Below are positions 56,000 to 64,000 of a DNA stretch of 64,000 nt, piece by piece. The DNA is from Gemmatimonadota bacterium (GTDB lineage Bacteria; Gemmatimonadota; Gemmatimonadetes; Longimicrobiales; Gaopeijiaceae), in NCBI GenBank assembly GCA_029879725.1, contig JAOUPR010000006.1, positions 1-64,000 on the forward strand. Direction: 5' to 3'. Numbering within the stretch: position 1 is the first letter of the stretch; each line of letters opens with the position of its first letter. Below the pieces are notes generated by a model. That model was not told where the DNA came from and ran no database searches. It saw only the letters and a program-made list of their open reading frames with translations. Position numbers and translations under genes: made by a program.

Positions 56000-56434
56000 A
56001 TGAAACGTCCGCTTCCGGTGCTGGGTTGGCGGGAGTGGATCTCCCTTCCCGACCTGGGCATCGACAGGATCAAGGCCAAGGTCGATACCGGAGCGCGCAC
56101 CTCCGCTCTGCACGCCTTCGACATCCGCCCCTTCAAACGGGGGGGACGGTCGATGGTGCGCTTCAAGGTCCACCCGGTGCAGAAGGACGCGCGCACCGTG
56201 GTGGAATGCGAGGCGGCGGTGGTGGACCAGAGGAAGGTGCGGAGCTCCTCCGGCCAGGAGTCGCTGCGCTTCGTGATCTCCACGGTCATGGAGGTGGGCG
56301 GAGTCCGGCGAACGGTGGAGATCACCCTTTCCCGGCGCGATTCCATGGGATTCCGCATGCTCCTCGGACGCCGAAGCATCAAGAAGAAGTTCCTCGTGGA
56401 TCCAGCCGGATCCTTCCTCACCAGCCGACCCTGA
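56000..56434 (+). CDS. Retropepsin-like 'ATP-dependent zinc protease' (RimB-type)
   Basis: A 144-residue single-domain protein of the Zn_protease (PF05618-type) family. The DTGA signature (KVDTGARTSALHAF, near residue 28) is the retropepsin-like active site; the family name is historical, since neither ATP nor zinc use is clear. LGWREWISLPDLGIDRIKAK and MGFRMLLGRRSIKKKFLVDP are typical start and end. In Pseudomonas, RimB trims the glutamate tail added to ribosomal protein S6 by RimK. Here it sits 18 bases upstream of a rimK homologue, which supports that pairing. Confidence 0.85.
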   Translation: MKRPLPVLGWREWISLPDLGIDRIKAKVDTGARTSALHAFDIRPFKRGGRSMVRFKVHPVQKDARTVVECEAAVVDQRKVRSSSGQESLRFVISTVMEVGGVRRTVEITLSRRDSMGFRMLLGRRSIKKKFLVDPAGSFLTSRP

Positions 56435-56452
56435 CCCCCCTCCGACGACCCC

Positions 56453-57430
56453 ATGAAGATCGGCATCCTCTCCTCCAAGGCATCCCTCTACTCCACCAGC
56501 CGCCTCAGGCAGGCCGCCGAGGAGCGGGGCCACGACGTGGAGGTGGTGAATCCCCTCCAGTGCTACATGAACATCTCGGTGAAGCGGCCCAAGGTCATGC
56601 ACCGCGGTGGCGAGTTGAGCTTCGACGCCATCATCCCCCGGATCGGGGCGTCGAAGACGTTCTACGGCACCGCCGTGGTGCGCCAATTCGAGATGATGGG
56701 AGTCTTCACGGTGGCGGAGTCGCAGGCCATCTCCCGCTCCCGCGACAAGCTCCGCTCCATGCAGCTCCTTTCGCGTGAAGGAGTGGGCCTTCCGGTGACG
56801 GGGTTCGCGCGCTCCCCCAAGGACCTGGACGGCGTGATCCAGTCGGTCGGCGGCCCACCGCTCATCATCAAGCTGCTGGAGGGGACCCAGGGGATGGGCG
56901 TGGTTCTGGCGGAGACCCGCAAGGCCGCCGAATCGGTGATCGGAGCCTTCCGCCAGCTCGACGCCAACATCCTCCTGCAGGAGTACATCAAGGAAGCCAA
57001 GGGCTCCGACCTGCGGGCGCTGGTGGTGGGAGGAAGGGTGGTGGCCGCCATGGAGCGGCACGCCGCGCCCGGCGAGTTCCGCTCCAACCTCCACCGTGGG
57101 GGAACGTCCAACCCGGTGACGCTCAGCGCCAAGGAGCGCAACACGGCCATCCGGGCGGCGCGGGTCATGGGCCTGGGGCTGGCCGGCGTGGACCTCCTCC
57201 GCTCGGAGCGGGGTCCACTGGTGATCGAGGTGAACTCCTCGCCGGGACTCCAGGGGATCGAGACGACCACCGGCGTCGACGTGGCCGGGGAGATCATCGA
57301 GTACATCGAGAACCACGCCACCCACGACGACGACCAGCAAGCCACGTCGTCCGACGACCCGCGTCCGCCCCGGAACAGGGCGCGTTCCCGGAAGGCCCGG
57401 CCGGCGTCCCTCGGAGACGAGTCTGAGTAG
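56453..57430 (+). CDS. rimK: RimK-type ATP-grasp alpha-L-glutamate ligase
   Basis: A 325-residue ATP-grasp ligase that adds glutamate residues to a protein or small acceptor, classically the C-terminus of ribosomal protein S6. [55 protein letters not shown] and [28 protein letters not shown] are its ATP- and metal-binding segments. The last ~35 residues ([14 protein letters not shown]… [10 protein letters not shown]) are a disordered, charged tail not typical of RimK. It follows the RimB-like gene by 18 bases and precedes the aspartoacylase-like gene by 19 bases. Confidence 0.92.
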
Positions 57431-57449
57431 CGCCTTCCACCCCCTGGAG

Positions 57450-58394
57450 GTGGGCGGCGTTCAGGTCGCCCCGGGAACGCGCGCGCGCGCCGAGATCCCC
57501 GTGGCCCGCCGGACCACGGGCGAGTGGGCCTTCCTCCCCGTGGAGGTGGTCCACGGCTCCCGCGAGGGTCCCGCCGTGTGGCTGAGCGGGGCCATCCACG
57601 GAGACGAGCTCGACGGCGTGGAGATCATCCGTCAGGTGCTGGGGAGGCTTCGCGCCCCTTCCATGGCCGGTACGGTGCTGGCGGTTCCGGTGGTGAACGT
57701 GTTCGGGTTCAGCAACGAGAATCGGTACCTCCCCGACCGGAGGGACCTGAACCGGTCCTTCCCCGGCGGCGCCCGCGGGTCCATGGCCTCGCGCCTGGCC
57801 CATCTCTTCATGAAGGAAGTGGTGTCGCTCTGCGACGTGGGGTTGGACTTCCACTGCGGGTCCGACGGGCGCGAAAACCATCCCCAGGTGCGCTGCAACC
57901 TCGACGATCCCGAGACCCGCGAGTACGCCCGCGCCTTCGCCGCGCCCATCACCATCCACAACCGTCCCCCCGACGGGTCGCTGCGCAAGGCCGCCCTGAA
58001 GGAGGGCGCCCGTGTCCTGGTCTACGAGGCCGGAGAGGTGGGCCGCTTCACCCCCTCCGCCATCGAGACGGGCGTGGCCGGTACGTTGCGCCTCCTCCGG
58101 TCCCTGGGAATGGTGGGCGGCGACGCCGTCGACGAACCTTCCACCCTGGAGGTCCGGGAGACGTACTGGATCCGCGCCAACCGCAGCGGGGTGTTCCGGG
58201 TGAGCGTGGCGCTGGGCGAACACGTCGAGAAGGGTCAGCACCTGGGATCCATCGCCGACACGCTGGGAGACGAGGGGCGCCCGGTCCGGGCACGCACGGC
58301 CGGAATGGTCATCGGGCGGCGCGTGAACCCCCTGGTCTACCAGGGAGAGGCGGTGGTCCACGTCGCCTCCCTGGACGGATCACCCCTGGAGTAG
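57450..58394 (+). CDS. Succinylglutamate desuccinylase / aspartoacylase-family zinc carboxypeptidase
   Basis: A 314-residue M14-related zinc hydrolase. HGDELDG (His and Glu ligands) and LDFHCGSDG (third ligand) are visible, with NVFGFSNENRYLPDRRDLNRSFPG between them as substrate-binding loop. A C-terminal biotinyl-like domain follows (GVFRVSVALGEHVEKGQHLG). The family removes N-succinyl or N-acetyl groups from glutamate or aspartate. GTG 57450 is the only usable start; the frame is open upstream, and a CTG at 57423 with GGAG seven bases before it would add FHPLE-type residues. It lies next to rimK and converges on the CoA-transferase gene with a 15-base overlap. Confidence 0.88.
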   Translation: MGGVQVAPGTRARAEIPVARRTTGEWAFLPVEVVHGSREGPAVWLSGAIHGDELDGVEIIRQVLGRLRAPSMAGTVLAVPVVNVFGFSNENRYLPDRRDLNRSFPGGARGSMASRLAHLFMKEVVSLCDVGLDFHCGSDGRENHPQVRCNLDDPETREYARAFAAPITIHNRPPDGSLRKAALKEGARVLVYEAGEVGRFTPSAIETGVAGTLRLLRSLGMVGGDAVDEPSTLEVRETYWIRANRSGVFRVSVALGEHVEKGQHLGSIADTLGDEGRPVRARTAGMVIGRRVNPLVYQGEAVVHVASLDGSPLE

Positions 58395-59627
58395 CACTCC
58401 CTCCTCCAGAAGCTCCACCACCTCCGCCTCGGCCATCCCGTCGCCCAGAAGGACCTCCCGCGTGTGCTCCCCCAGGAGGGGAGCCCCTCGCCGCGGGGGC
58501 CGGGCCCCGTCGGAACGTTCCAGCTTCACCGGCGTCCCCAGGGTACGCAGCCTCCCCACCCGGGAGTGCTCCACCTCCGTGACCATCTCCCGTGCGAGCG
58601 TCTGGGGGTGCTCCAGCATCTCCCCGATGGTGGCCACGGGACCGGCCGGGACACCCGCCGCCGTGAGGCGCGCCACCCAGCCGTCGGTGGAATCACCGAG
58701 GAAGTGGGGCGCCAGCGTCTCCACCAGGTCCTCCAGGTGGCTCATCCGGTCCTGGTTGGCGCTGAAGCGGGGATCGTCCCGCAGTCCTGGGACACCCAGA
58801 ACGCCGGTGAGCCGCGACCAGGTTCCCTCGTTGCTCGCCCCCACGTTCACCCACCCGTCGGACGTGGCGAAGGCCTGGTAGGGAGCGGTGAGGGGGTGTG
58901 CCGAACCCCCGGGCCCCGGCGATACGCCCGACGCCAGCGCGATGGCGCTCTGCCAGAAGGTCTGGGTGATGCCGGCCTCCAGGAGGGACGTGTCCACCCG
59001 CTGCCCCCGTCCGCTGCGCTCCCGCTCGAAGAGCGCGGTGACCACGGCGAACGCCGCCAGGATCCCCGCCGTGATGTCGGTGACCGGCGCGCCCACCTTC
59101 ACCGGGGCCCGCCCCGGCCCTTCCCCGGTGATGCTCATGAGCCCCGAGTATCCCTGGGCGATGAGGTCGAATCCCCCCTCGTCGGCCATGGGACCCGTGC
59201 GGCCGAACCCGGTGATCTGACAGTACACCAGTCGGGGGTTGGCCGCGGCCAGCTCGTCGTACCCCATCCCCATCCCCTCCATGGTGCCGGCGCGAAAGTT
59301 CTCCACGACCACGTCGGCACCGTGGAGGAGGCGTCGCACCATCGCTCGCCCGCGGGGGTCCCTGAGGTCCACGGCCACGCCCCGCTTCCCCCGGTTCATC
59401 ATCATGAAGGCGGCGGACTCGCCGTCGGCCGAGGGTGGACCGAACCCACGGGTGGCGTCGCCTCCGGGGAGGCGTTCCACCTTGATCACGTCGGCCCCCT
59501 GGTCGGCCAGGAGGAGCCCGCACGCGGGTCCGGCCATGACGTGGGCCAGTTCCACCACCCGGATCCCGGCGAGGGGGGGCGCGCCCGATCCCACCGTCCC
59601 GCCCGGCGGGGCCGACCCACCCGCCAT
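58380..59627 (-). CDS. CaiB/BaiF-family (class III) CoA-transferase
   Basis: A 415-residue enzyme that moves CoA between acyl-CoA and a free carboxylic acid. GIRVVELAHVMAGPACGLLLADQGADVIKVE, VVENFRAGTMEGMGMGYDEL and the active-site Asp154 (GGFDLIAQGYSGLMS) are typical. VDTSLLEAGI and TSDGWVNVGASNEGTWSRL complete the fold. ATG 59627 overlaps the crotonase stop as TGATG. It is the last gene of the leftward CoA/TRAP operon and should activate or exchange the acid that the crotonase handles. Confidence 0.92.
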   Translation of the reverse strand: MAGGSAPPGGTVGSGAPPLAGIRVVELAHVMAGPACGLLLADQGADVIKVERLPGGDATRGFGPPSADGESAAFMMMNRGKRGVAVDLRDPRGRAMVRRLLHGADVVVENFRAGTMEGMGMGYDELAAANPRLVYCQITGFGRTGPMADEGGFDLIAQGYSGLMSITGEGPGRAPVKVGAPVTDITAGILAAFAVVTALFERERSGRGQRVDTSLLEAGITQTFWQSAIALASGVSPGPGGSAHPLTAPYQAFATSDGWVNVGASNEGTWSRLTGVLGVPGLRDDPRFSANQDRMSHLEDLVETLAPHFLGDSTDGWVARLTAAGVPAGPVATIGEMLEHPQTLAREMVTEVEHSRVGRLRTLGTPVKLERSDGARPPRRGAPLLGEHTREVLLGDGMAEAEVVELLEEGVLLQG

Positions 59628-60406
59628 CAGCGTCCCTCGAACCGCGGAGGGCGCTTCTCCAGGAAGGCGGCGCGGCCCTCGCGGTAGTCGCCGGTCTCGA
59701 AGGCGCGATGGACCTCCTCCTCCTCTTCCGACGTCAGGGGGCGCGGGTCGCGCAGCCGCCGTATGAAACGCTTGTGCCAGCGGTTCACCAGCGGCGCCCC
59801 GGCGGCGACACGGCCGGCCAGCGCGCCGGCCTCCTCCAGGACCGTGCCGTCGGCCACCACCCGGTTGACCAGCCCCACCTGGAGGGCGCGCTGGGCGTCC
59901 ACCAGATCTCCGGTGAGAAGGATCTCCAGGACCGGTGCCGGACCCAGGAGCGCCACCAGAGGAGCCAACTCGTCGTACGACATGGTGAGCCCCAGGCGGT
60001 TGATGGGCGCGCCGAAACGGCTCGATTCTTCACAGATCCGCAGATCGCAGGAGGCGGCGATCTCGAGCCCCCCGCCCACGCAGAGCCCCTCCACCACGGC
60101 CACGGTCGGGTGGGGACACCCCTGGATGGCCTGCAGGGCGGCGGCGATGGCCGCGCTGTAGCGGCGCACCTGCTCCGGCGTGTCGCGCTGGTCCGCGAAG
60201 GCCGCGATGTCCGATCCGGCCGAGAAGGCCCTCCCTCCCGTGCCGCGCACGAGGACGCAACCCAGGTCGTCCCGCTCGGCGAGGGCGTGGAACGCCTCGG
60301 CCAGCGCGGTCCATCCCTCCACGTCCAGGACGTTGTGCCGCTCGGGGCCGTCCAGCCGCACCGTGGCGACGCGATCCTCCACCGAGACCCGAACGCCCGC
60401 GCTCAT
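59627..60406 (-). CDS. Enoyl-CoA hydratase/isomerase family (crotonase) protein
   Basis: A 259-residue crotonase. The oxyanion and CoA-binding segments are clear (RAFSAGSDIAAF, GLCVGGGLEIAASCDLRI). The first catalytic Glu aligns with Glu115. The second Glu of hydratases, in the P-E of GxPE, is replaced: FGAPINRLGLTMS has Ile135 there. Simple hydration is thus doubtful; isomerase, lyase, decarboxylase or thioesterase chemistry is possible. ATG 60406 overlaps the DctM stop as ATGA. It lies between a TRAP transporter and a CoA-transferase, so it likely works on the imported acid as a CoA ester. Confidence 0.9.
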   Translation of the reverse strand: MSAGVRVSVEDRVATVRLDGPERHNVLDVEGWTALAEAFHALAERDDLGCVLVRGTGGRAFSAGSDIAAFADQRDTPEQVRRYSAAIAAALQAIQGCPHPTVAVVEGLCVGGGLEIAASCDLRICEESSRFGAPINRLGLTMSYDELAPLVALLGPAPVLEILLTGDLVDAQRALQVGLVNRVVADGTVLEEAGALAGRVAAGAPLVNRWHKRFIRRLRDPRPLTSEEEEEVHRAFETGDYREGRAAFLEKRPPRFEGR

Positions 60407-61686
60407 CGGTAGAACCACTCCACCAACGCCATGGGAACGACGGGGACGTAGGTGACCAGCAGGAGCATGGCCACCAGCACGGCCACGAAGAAGACGTTCA
60501 CCTTGCTCACCTCCCAGATGTCGGCCTTGGCCACCGAGCACGCCGTGACCAGGACGCTGGCCACGGGCGGGGTCTGCTGTCCGATCCCCAGGTTCAGCGT
60601 CACCACCAGCCCGAAGTGTACCGGGTCGATCCCCGCCGCCTGTACCAGCGGCATCACGATGGGCACCACCAGGATGATGGCCGCCGCCGAGTGCAGGAAG
60701 AGCCCGATGACGAGGAAGAAGACGTTGAGGAGGAGGAGGATGGCCCAACGACTCTGCGTCACGCCCAGGATGCCCGCCGCGACCTCCTGGGGAAGCCGCA
60801 CCTCCGTCAGGTAGTCTCCCAGGAGCGCGGAGGCCGCCACCAGGAGCATGACCACCGCCGTCTGGGTACCCGCCTCCACCATCGCGTGGCGAAGGTGGAG
60901 CCAGGTCAGCTCGCGGTACACCACCCCGCCGATGAAGATGGCCGCCACCACCGCGAGCCCGGCCCCCTCGGTGGCCGTGACCCACCCGCTGAAGATCCCG
61001 CCCAGGATGATGACGGGGAGGAGGAGCGCCCACCCCGCCTCGCGGAACGTCTCCCACACGCGCCGTACCCGGAAGCTCTCCTCCCTGGGGAAGTCGTTGC
61101 GCCGCGCCAGGACGTAGGCCACCAGCATCATCAGGAGGCCTCCCAGCACACCGGGCACGATCCCCGCCACGAAGAGCTCCACGATGGAACTCCCCGACAT
61201 CACCCCATAGAGGATCATGGGGATGGAGGGAGGGATGATGACCGCCAGAGTGGCCGAGGACGACGTGACCGCGGCCGCGAAGGCCCTCGAGTACCCCTTC
61301 TGGCGCATGGCCGGAATGAGGATGGAGCCCAGCGCCGCCACGTCGGCCACCGCCGATCCCGAGATCTCCGCGAAGAAGAGGGAGGCGCTGATGGTCACCA
61401 TGGAGAGCCCGCCCCGGATCCACCCCACCATGGCGGAGGCGAAGGCGATGAGGCGACGGCTGATCCCGGAGGCGTTCATCACGGCGCCGGCCAGGATGAA
61501 CAAGGGGATGGCGATGAGGGGGAAGGAAGTCGCGCCGTTGAACATCACCAGCGCGGCGTTGGGGAGGGAGCCGATCCCCCCCTGCAGAAGCATCGCCACC
61601 ACCGCGGCCACTCCCAGCGCCACCCCGATGGGGACGTTGATCAGGACGAGAGCGAGCAGGAGAAGGGCGATGGCCAGGAGCGTCAT
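60403..61686 (-). CDS. TRAP transporter large membrane subunit (DctM-type)
   Basis: A 427-residue protein with about 12 membrane spans. It has typical segments such as NGATSFPLIAIPLFILAGAVMNASGI, AEISGSAVADVAALGSILIPAM, VIIPPSIPMILYGVMSG and NLGIGQQTPPVASVLVTAC. It forms the Na+- or H+-driven channel of a TRAP carboxylate importer with the DctQ and DctP genes upstream. The start overlaps the DctQ stop as ATGA. Confidence 0.93.
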   Translation of the reverse strand: MTLLAIALLLLALVLINVPIGVALGVAAVVAMLLQGGIGSLPNAALVMFNGATSFPLIAIPLFILAGAVMNASGISRRLIAFASAMVGWIRGGLSMVTISASLFFAEISGSAVADVAALGSILIPAMRQKGYSRAFAAAVTSSSATLAVIIPPSIPMILYGVMSGSSIVELFVAGIVPGVLGGLLMMLVAYVLARRNDFPREESFRVRRVWETFREAGWALLLPVIILGGIFSGWVTATEGAGLAVVAAIFIGGVVYRELTWLHLRHAMVEAGTQTAVVMLLVAASALLGDYLTEVRLPQEVAAGILGVTQSRWAILLLLNVFFLVIGLFLHSAAAIILVVPIVMPLVQAAGIDPVHFGLVVTLNLGIGQQTPPVASVLVTACSVAKADIWEVSKVNVFFVAVLVAMLLLVTYVPVVPMALVEWFYR

Positions 61687-62210
61687 GCCGCCCCTCCGGA
61701 GTGGTCGGGGCGGGTGCCGCCCTCCACGTCCTTCTCCTCACCACCCCCGGCCAGGAGATCCGGAAGGGTCACCAACTGGGCCACCACGAAGAGCACCGCC
61801 CCCACGGGAATCACGGACTGCGCCGCGCGGGCCGGCACCCAGGGGAGGGACACCAAAGAGCTCCCGCCCAGGACCACCATGACCTCCACGCCCGCCCAGG
61901 CCAGCGCCACGAAGAACGCCACCACCACCACCTCGGCCACCAGGATGAGGACCTTCCGCATCGTCCCCCTGGACCGCGCCACCAGGGTGGGCATCCCGAT
62001 GTGCCCGCGGTGGAGCGCCGCCAGGGCGGCGCCGTAGTAGGTGAGCCAGGCCAGGAAGATGGACGCCACCTCGTCGTACCACACCAGCGACGCCCCCGCC
62101 TTGCGGAAGATCACCCCCACGACCACCACCAGGGCCAGCCCCACCATGAGGCTCAGGACCACGCCCTCCAGGAGCCGCTGCAGCCCTCGCTTCACGTCGG
62201 CACGGGTCAC
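61683..62210 (-). CDS. TRAP transporter small membrane subunit (DctQ-type)
   Basis: A 175-residue protein with four membrane spans (VVLSLMVGLALVVVVGVIF; WYDEVASIFLAWLTYYGAAL; ILVAEVVVVAFFVALAWAGV; AAQSVIPVGAVLFVVAQLV). LVWYDEVASIFLAWLTYYGA is the DctQ hallmark. The start is GTG 62210, eight bases after CGGAG. It stabilises DctM and docks the DctP binding protein. A soluble acidic tail ends the protein. Confidence 0.9.
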   Translation of the reverse strand: MTRADVKRGLQRLLEGVVLSLMVGLALVVVVGVIFRKAGASLVWYDEVASIFLAWLTYYGAALAALHRGHIGMPTLVARSRGTMRKVLILVAEVVVVAFFVALAWAGVEVMVVLGGSSLVSLPWVPARAAQSVIPVGAVLFVVAQLVTLPDLLAGGGEEKDVEGGTRPDHSGGAA

Positions 62211-62226
62211 CGGTGCGTCTCCGAGG

Positions 62227-63240
62227 TCAAGGGCGGGGATCCCGCACCGCGGCCGCCCGCTCCACCAGCCCGGCCCCTCCGGGCACCGAGCCGGCGAAGT
62301 CGGCGTATACGGCCTCGCTCCGCCCGGTGAACACCGCCGGATCCACCTCGTTCACCGCCACGCCCTCGTCCCGGACCGCTTCCACCAACCGGCGGTCCAG
62401 TTCGGCCGCGGTCTCGTACACGAACGCCTGGGTGGCCTTCGCCTCCTCTTCGAGGACGGCGCGCACCTCGGGAGGGTATCCGCTCCATCCTCTGGGGGAC
62501 ACGACGACGTACCCGGGAGTGTAGACGTGGCCCGTGAGGGAAAGGTAGTCCTGCACCTCGTAGAGCTTCGATCCCCAGATCTGGGCCAGCGGATTCTCCT
62601 GGCCGTCTATGACCCCGGTCTGGAGACCGATGAACACCTCGGACAGGGCCATGGGGGTCGGGTTGGCGCCCAGGGCCTGGAAGAGCTTCACGCGCCACAC
62701 CCCCCGGGGGGTCCGGAGCTTCACCCCGGCCAGGTCGTCGGGTCCGCGGATGGGGCGCACGTTGTTCGTCACATGGCGGAACCCGTTCTCCCACACCGCG
62801 AGGATGGGGTAACCGCGGGCTTCCGCGAGAGGAGCGAGGTCGGACCAGAAGAGCTCCGTCTCGATGCGCTTCATGTGCTCCCGGTCCGCCACGAGATAGG
62901 GCATCTCGAACAGCCCGAACTCGTCGATCTGCGACGACATCACCGAAGAGGGAAGCGCGAAGTCCACCGTCCCCAGCTTGATCTTCTGGAGAAGGAGCTC
63001 GTCTCCCCCGAGCTGGCTCGACCCGTACACCACCACCTCCCACCCTTCGGGGAGGCGGGCATTGGCCCGCCGGGCGAACTCCTCGGCCGAGCGGGCGAAG
63101 AGAGAGCCGGGCTCCCCCACGTGGCCGAACTTCAGATCCCGGGGACCCGCCTCACCGCCGCAGGCCGCGACAGCCAGCGACGCGCCCACGAGCGCTCCCG
63201 CCGCCACCCGGGTCATCGCACCTCGCGCACCCTTCCTCAT
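62227..63240 (-). CDS. TRAP transporter solute-binding protein (DctP-type)
   Basis: A 337-residue lipoprotein binding protein. The signal ends at LAVAAC (Cys27). KFGHVGEPGSLFARSAEEFA, NVRPIRGPDDLAGVKLRTP and SEVFIGLQTGVIDGQENPLAQIW are typical of DctP; the Arg of KLRTP is the usual carboxylate ligand. The ligand is likely a mono- or dicarboxylic or keto acid. ATG 63240 overlaps the aminotransferase stop as ATGA. The lipid anchor is less usual for Gram-negative TRAP binding proteins and fits a membrane-tethered protein. Confidence 0.92.
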   Translation of the reverse strand: MRKGARGAMTRVAAGALVGASLAVAACGGEAGPRDLKFGHVGEPGSLFARSAEEFARRANARLPEGWEVVVYGSSQLGGDELLLQKIKLGTVDFALPSSVMSSQIDEFGLFEMPYLVADREHMKRIETELFWSDLAPLAEARGYPILAVWENGFRHVTNNVRPIRGPDDLAGVKLRTPRGVWRVKLFQALGANPTPMALSEVFIGLQTGVIDGQENPLAQIWGSKLYEVQDYLSLTGHVYTPGYVVVSPRGWSGYPPEVRAVLEEEAKATQAFVYETAAELDRRLVEAVRDEGVAVNEVDPAVFTGRSEAVYADFAGSVPGGAGLVERAAAVRDPRP

Positions 63241-64000
63241 CTGCCACCTCCCGCGGAAGACGTCTCCTTCAGATGGTCCATGGCCGCCGCCGCCCCACCA
63301 CCCTGGTGGGGGACGTCCGCCAACGCCAGCCCCATCTCCACCCCCGCCAGCGTGCCCACCAGCGTCAGCTCGTTGATGTCGCCCAGGTGGCCGATGCGGA
63401 AGACCCGCCCTTTGAGGTCCCCCAGCCCCGTTCCCAGCGACATGTCGAAGCGGTCCAGCACCACGGCACGGAAGGCGTCGGCGTCGTGTCCTTCCGGCAT
63501 CCGCACGGCGGTGACGGCATTGCTGAAGCTCCCCGCCGACCGGGCGACCATCTCCAGCCCCCAGCCGCGCACCGCCCAGCGGGTGGCCTCGGCGAAACGG
63601 GCGTGGCGAGCGAATACGTTGGGCAGCCCCTCCTCCCTGAGCATCTCGAGCGACTCCGCCAATCCGTAGAGGAGGGTGGTGGCCGGCGTGTAGGGGAAGA
63701 ATCCGTCCCGGTTGGACTCGAGCATGTCGCCCCAGTCCCAGTACGCACAGGGGAGGCGCGAGGTCTCCCGGGCCTCCATGGCCCGGGGCGACACGGCGGT
63801 GAACGAAAGCCCGGGCGGGAGCATGAGCCCCTTCTGGGATCCGCTCACCGTCACGTCCACCCCCCACGCGTCGTGCTGCACGTCGGTGGCGGCCAGCGAC
63901 GACACCGTGTCGGCCATGAGGAGCGCCGGGTGCCCGCTGCCCCGCACGGCCGCGCCCACGGCCTCCAGGTCCGTGGTCACCCCGGTGGACGTCTCGTTGT
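63237..64000 (-). CDS. Class V PLP aminotransferase (serine-/alanine-glyoxylate type), 5' end outside window
   Basis: The last ~254 residues are visible; the frame is open at the right edge. NETSTGV, ALLMADTVSSLAATDVQHDAWGVDVTV and the PLP lysine of SGSQKGLMLPPGLSF identify a class V aminotransferase of the serine-pyruvate, serine-glyoxylate or ureidoglycine-glyoxylate group. MSLGTGLGDLKGRVFRIGHLGDIN is the conserved C-terminal arginine region that grips the substrate carboxylate. It overlaps dctP as ATGA and would convert an amino acid to its keto acid, or the reverse, in the same pathway as the TRAP transporter and CoA enzymes. Confidence 0.92.
   Translation of the reverse strand, partial: NETSTGVTTDLEAVGAAVRGSGHPALLMADTVSSLAATDVQHDAWGVDVTVSGSQKGLMLPPGLSFTAVSPRAMEARETSRLPCAYWDWGDMLESNRDGFFPYTPATTLLYGLAESLEMLREEGLPNVFARHARFAEATRWAVRGWGLEMVARSAGSFSNAVTAVRMPEGHDADAFRAVVLDRFDMSLGTGLGDLKGRVFRIGHLGDINELTLVGTLAGVEMGLALADVPHQGGGAAAAMDHLKETSSAGGGR

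Follow-up and report, generated by a model that had tools for sequence, protein, structure and literature searches.

Six adjacent genes of a Gemmatimonadota bacterium combine an aminotransferase, a transporter and two enzymes of coenzyme A chemistry, which raises the question of what compound such a set would process and by which route. They lie at the right end of the window, as we call the whole stretch of 64,000 nucleotides analysed here, which corresponds to positions 1-64000 of contig C21 of a draft genome (contig end at 69936). A sequence-only reading of this DNA had listed a class V aminotransferase, a complete TRAP system, a crotonase and a CaiB-type CoA-transferase, and had matched the set to no textbook pathway.

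The operon and its divergent neighbour

Each of the six minus-strand genes has an open reading frame and a clear family match in profile searches, so the earlier gene list was right. They are transcribed in the order aminotransferase (AT), DctP, DctQ, DctM, crotonase and CaiB-type CoA-transferase:

63237-64000, minus strand: AT, class V aminotransferase (BhcA / serine-glyoxylate aminotransferase-like), 3' part; Aminotran_5 63 bits, NCBIfam NF045640 438 bits (cut-off 650)
62227-63240, minus strand: DctP, TRAP solute-binding protein; PF03480 259 bits, TIGR00787 216 bits, above its cut-off
61683-62210, minus strand: DctQ, TRAP small permease; PF04290 73 bits
60403-61686, minus strand: DctM, TRAP large permease; PF06808 388 bits, TIGR00786 398 bits, above its cut-off
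59627-60406, minus strand: crotonase-fold enzyme without the second catalytic Glu of enoyl-CoA hydratases; PF00378 (ECH_1) 152 bits
58380-59627, minus strand: family III (CaiB) CoA-transferase; PF02515 (CoA_transf_3) 416 bits, NF052585 340 bits (cut-off 750)

Four of the five junctions overlap, through ATGA at AT/DctP, DctQ/DctM and DctM/crotonase and through TGATG at crotonase/CaiB, and a 16-base gap between DctP and DctQ is the sole exception. The TRAP system is complete, with DctP and DctM over their NCBIfam subfamily cut-offs and DctQ over the Pfam one. The AT opens the operon and is cut by the window edge; the whole gene runs from contig position 63237 to about 64424, or to 64535 if an upstream GTG is used, and its orthologs start near residue 35-43 of the long form. 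At the other end, an AstE/AspA-family gene (57450-58394) on the opposite strand converges on CaiB and overlaps its end, which closes the operon. This gene is the last of a row in 56000-58394, convergent with the operon, that also holds an ATP-dependent zinc-protease-like gene and a RimK-like ligase gene. The suggestion that the operon may continue beyond 64000 stands as far as the AT is concerned, which runs some 0.4-0.5 kb past the window, but no further operon genes follow: since the AT is the first gene and its neighbour is divergent, a rightward continuation was ruled out. Recurrence in many genomes likewise rules out a chance neighbourhood. The six-gene unit is a real, complete bacterial operon.

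Extension to the contig end, which had been proposed as a search for a dehydrogenase, ligase or regulator, brought in a dehydrogenase adjoining the AT and divergent from it, followed by a second hydroxy-acid enzyme:

Contig 64562-67579, outside the window, plus strand: FAD + Fe-S dehydrogenase, 1005 aa; domains FAD-binding, FAD-oxidase C-terminal, Fe-S and CCG
Contig 67611-68894, outside the window: FMN-dependent alpha-hydroxyacid dehydrogenase; PF01070

The first belongs to the D-2-hydroxyacid dehydrogenase family (GlcD/YdiJ/LDHD type), and its nearest models are YdiJ (NF049975, 466 bits) and GlcD (TIGR00387, 192 bits), both below their cut-offs (1350 and 567.9). The statement that no textbook pathway fits thus survived the extension: neither the flanks nor the genes conserved among relatives included any recognisable member of the methylaspartate, taurine or aromatic pathways, and these candidates were rejected. 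The bhcB, bhcC and bhcD genes of the beta-hydroxyaspartate cycle are absent from contig positions 60000-69936. The FMN-dependent enzyme, itself followed by a class II FBP aldolase, was not seen beside the dehydrogenase in the mapped relatives, and neither was the aldolase.

Recurrence of the gene set

Of the 121 genomes of the window's family, which named records place in the Gemmatimonadota, about half contain a close relative of the crotonase, and maps of 20-kb neighbourhoods repeatedly gave the arrangement of a dehydrogenase next to (AT)-DctP-DctQ-DctM-crotonase-CaiB. A species-level scan (one genome per species, with gene calls in unannotated records made within this analysis) yielded 80 loci, 46 of them with full flanks; some of these loci come from the same genomes as the family neighbourhoods, and the two counts are not independent. 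Dehydrogenase, AT, TRAP and CaiB occur together in 15 of the 46, and seven lack only the AT. The TRAP carrier is replaced by an MFS carrier in two and by a TTT carrier in one, and in 13 CaiB alone stands beside the crotonase, with no dehydrogenase. The AT, absent from about one third of the well-flanked Gemmatimonadota clusters, is a detachable part of the module.

The gene set, which the sequence-only reading had proposed to look for elsewhere, is also present in proteobacteria of the alpha, beta and gamma classes, frequently with the order unchanged, and as partial sets on short contigs of Acidobacteria MAGs. A plasmid of Limimaricola variabilis has the exact gene order plus a GntR gene, together with a more distant crotonase, and Cupriavidus metallidurans CH34 has the set with a TTT carrier and a GntR gene of FCD type. 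The regulators of glycolate operons, GlcR and GlcC, are of the GntR family, with GlcC in its FadR subfamily (PMC11323563). The module of Caballeronia uses an MFS carrier and includes a 2-keto-4-pentenoate hydratase, and that of Acidiphilium an SBF (bile-acid:Na) symporter. The carrier is therefore exchangeable, being TRAP, TTT, MFS, SBF, GntP or none.

Some family genomes carry the dehydrogenase and AT with TRAP and no crotonase or CaiB in the stretch, others carry the two with a GntP permease, and a haloarchaeon has a more distant dehydrogenase-AT pair. From these cases, dehydrogenase and AT form the most persistent pair, and crotonase and CaiB form a second arm. Given the AT-less clusters and the 13 crotonase-CaiB loci that lack the dehydrogenase, the arms may be two pathways that can be separated but are often found together. 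In 34 complete modules, sequence identities are correlated between the four enzymes (r 0.73-0.92), as is also expected from common descent.

Several variants were observed along the way. Nine of the AT-less clusters have SusD-like and TonB-receptor (SusC-like) genes between the dehydrogenase and DctP (Pfam, one example of each), a hint that a larger or complexed substrate is taken up across the outer membrane; among non-core ORFs, the search for further conserved neighbours returned this pair and local synteny only. In seven loci (Variovorax, Cupriavidus and relatives), the crotonase and CaiB genes occur in a second conserved context, accompanied by those for an iron-containing alcohol dehydrogenase, an amidohydrolase, TctC and a GcvA-type regulator, and these loci contain neither the FAD-FeS dehydrogenase nor the AT. 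In two family genomes the operon is otherwise similar, but DctP is separated from DctQ and DctM by an insertion of about 4 kb that carries small ORFs, judged by eye to resemble a toxin-antitoxin pair, and a large ORF for a membrane protein.

A candidate pathway for D-2-hydroxyacids

Around the observed gene order, families, conserved residues and recurrence as a unit, we place a reading to which we give a probability of about 0.62: the operon would form one of the two sides of a conserved, divergently transcribed module that breaks down a D-2-hydroxyacid through uptake and oxidation, with one arm for amino exchange and another for CoA. A small hydroxy acid would enter through the TRAP carrier, and its C2 hydroxyl would be oxidised by the divergent FAD + Fe-S dehydrogenase to give a 2-oxo acid, with electrons passing to the respiratory chain. 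The AT would then exchange the amino group between the 2-oxo acid, most likely glyoxylate, and an amino acid. In the CoA arm, CaiB would move CoA onto a carboxylic acid, and the crotonase would act on the resulting thioester with no need for the canonical Glu residues, through decarboxylation, C-C cleavage or hydrolysis. We infer both the reaction directions and the electron acceptor. Organic-acid uptake, amino-group exchange and CoA transfer, as predicted from the window, are consistent with everything found.

The dehydrogenase keeps the substrate-binding signature of its family. In mouse LDHD, subsite A (Arg347, His398, His405, Glu442 and His443) binds the glycolate moiety common to D-2-hydroxyacids (PMC10589216), and this Arg/His/His/Glu/His set is present in the dehydrogenase of the window's genome and in every module copy aligned. 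In the distal subsite (subsite B), the alignment reveals an invariant Arg that is common to E. coli YdiJ and absent from GlcD, and the position of D2HGDH Lys401 is not Lys.

The crotonases, 120 sequences of which were aligned with E. coli PaaF and ScpB, depart from their usual annotation. Of the two catalytic Glu of hydratases, which we take to be E144 and E164 in the numbering of the rat enzyme (positions checked on E. coli PaaF), the second is Ile or Val in all 120 and the first is lost in 30, so that hydratase activity is unlikely. Most AT-less Gemmatimonadota clusters are among those without the first Glu, as are Limimaricola, Acidiphilium and one family genome, whose crotonases are more distant; in the window copy the first Glu is present, which leaves one residue of the pair by which an enoyl-CoA hydratase is recognised. 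Judged by these residues, the enzyme is probably not a hydratase and the label 'enoyl-CoA hydratase' on this group is probably wrong. The lyase/isomerase-type cleavage foreseen for the crotonase becomes, with the Glu pair gone, one option beside decarboxylation or hydrolysis. As for CaiB, PF02515 covers residues 19-389, which identifies a family III CoA-transferase, and an Asp, presumably catalytic, aligns with the conserved Asp of Frc/YfdE. Its closest models are the succinate-glutarate (SUGCT), succinyl-CoA:mesaconate and oxalate CoA-transferases, with which it shares the family III fold, but it falls below every equivalog cut-off.

The leads on the substrate conflict, with evidence both for a glycolate-like compound and for a hydroxy-dicarboxylate. 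The narrower C2 form of the reading, a tentative one that we consider unlikely as it stands, proposes a glycolate module in which the dehydrogenase would give glyoxylate, the AT would give glycine, and the CoA arm would dispose of or supply glyoxylate, for example by aldol chemistry of malyl-CoA type with the CoA handed on by CaiB. The AT does fall in the glyoxylate aminotransferase group: its nearest NCBIfam model is BhcA of the beta-hydroxyaspartate cycle, although its score of 438 bits is below the equivalog cut-off of 650, and it scores 344 bits against the serine-glyoxylate aminotransferase 6pk1. In the tree, the ATs of the module group with GntP-linked and with purine- or hydantoin-linked ones, the last being homologs of the same clade that sit in purine and hydantoin clusters; BhcA is on a long branch and its placement is unsure. 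In Tateyamaria, where a BhcA (47% identity to the query AT) and a module AT (58%) coexist, the set of FAD-FeS dehydrogenase, AT and TRAP adjoins a full beta-hydroxyaspartate cycle and an HbpS/GlcG-like gene; this is the only relative where bhcB, bhcC and bhcD are adjacent to the module, of which they are not members. Both the Tateyamaria locus and the purine-linked ATs speak for glyoxylate. Relatives of DctP (43-50% identity) include some in clusters with PdxA, DenD and OtnK genes, a signature of tetronate catabolism that would speak for a small hydroxy-monocarboxylate. The window's own genome has no malate synthase, which would fit a glycolate module, but this enzyme is rare across the family (14 of 121 genomes) and its absence is therefore uninformative. 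Against glycolate are also the distal Arg, which is shared not with GlcD but with YdiJ, an enzyme strict for D-2-hydroxyglutarate in E. coli (PMC9504171), and the proposed aldol chemistry, which finds no support in the crotonase.

The other narrower form, possible and again with the odds against it, takes D-malate, D-2-hydroxyglutarate or a relative as the substrate; oxidation would give a 2-oxo-dicarboxylate, the AT would pair it with Asp or Glu in amino exchange, and CaiB and the crotonase would handle a dicarboxylyl-CoA. The distal Arg and the succinate-glutarate and mesaconate relatives of CaiB would speak for a dicarboxylate, and TRAP and TTT carriers typically transport dicarboxylates. 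On the other hand, the tetronate-type clusters of the DctP relatives suggest a monocarboxylate, the Lys401 of D2HGDH is not kept, and the GntP and SBF carriers of other modules are, to our knowledge, not usual for dicarboxylates.

A cycle of malonyl-type decarboxylation is a poorer prospect. CaiB would make a malonyl-type thioester (of hydroxymalonate, for example), the crotonase would decarboxylate it like ScpB, CoA would be passed on as in Frc/Oxc, and the hydroxy acid would feed the dehydrogenase. Such chemistry would not need the Glu pair, the second Glu is missing as well from ScpB, a methylmalonyl-CoA decarboxylase whose E. coli gene adjoins a CoA-transferase gene, and CaiB is related to Frc/YfdE; however, the crotonase scores 139 bits against the ScpB model (cut-off 257), the His of the ScpB motif AGHDI is Ser, Asn, Ala or Thr in the module, and hydroxymalonate is not known to occur as an abundant substrate in nature. 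Degradation of itaconate or mesaconate in the manner of human SUGCT, AUH and CLYBL, suggested by the likeness of CaiB to the succinate-glutarate and mesaconate enzymes, is very improbable and was set aside, since hydration by an AUH-type crotonase is expected to need the missing Glu pair, the conserved set showed no citramalyl-CoA lyase, and the AT and dehydrogenase would be left unexplained.

One point against the D-2-hydroxyacid module is that a route of hydroxyacid oxidation plus transamination gives the CoA arm no agreed place. A bolder version, which we put forward as a speculative one, is that of an undescribed, phylum-crossing pathway in which a CaiB-fed crotonase devoid of the Glu pair would catalyse a new thioester reaction that would be of C-C lyase, aldolase or decarboxylase type and be coupled both to the oxidation of D-2-hydroxyacids and to a transamination of the glyoxylate kind.

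Meaning and comparison with known systems

Seen together, genes that carry generic labels such as TRAP, enoyl-CoA hydratase, CoA transferase and aminotransferase make up a single unit open to testing, which many Gemmatimonadota not yet in culture share with culturable proteobacteria. Much carbon passes through hydroxy acids, glycolate among them, in soil and sea, and, as the carrier is swapped while the enzymes stay, a handful of assays in C. metallidurans or Limimaricola could pin down the substrate. No curated family in the libraries searched names the whole set, and no paper on it was found among the open-licence literature searched.

The closest known systems are the glycolate operons, glcC / glcDEFGB of E. 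coli and glcR-glcDEF with bhcABCD of P. denitrificans, which share with the module an FAD + Fe-S 2-hydroxyacid dehydrogenase, a glyoxylate-type aminotransferase and, in its proteobacterial copies, a GntR-type regulator, sometimes with a GlcG-like gene nearby. The module differs from them in its single fused FAD-FeS protein of YdiJ architecture in place of GlcDEF, in its TRAP or other carrier and its crotonase/CaiB arm, and in having no malate synthase and no BhcB/C/D. The YdiJ D-2-hydroxyglutarate dehydrogenases of E. coli and P. ananatis have the same fused FAD + Fe-S architecture and the same distal Arg, but the dehydrogenase remains far from the YdiJ cut-off (466 against 1350 bits), and in E. 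coli no carrier, AT or CoA genes share an operon with ydiJ. The module is made of known enzyme families, and what is unusual in it is their combination and the crotonase.
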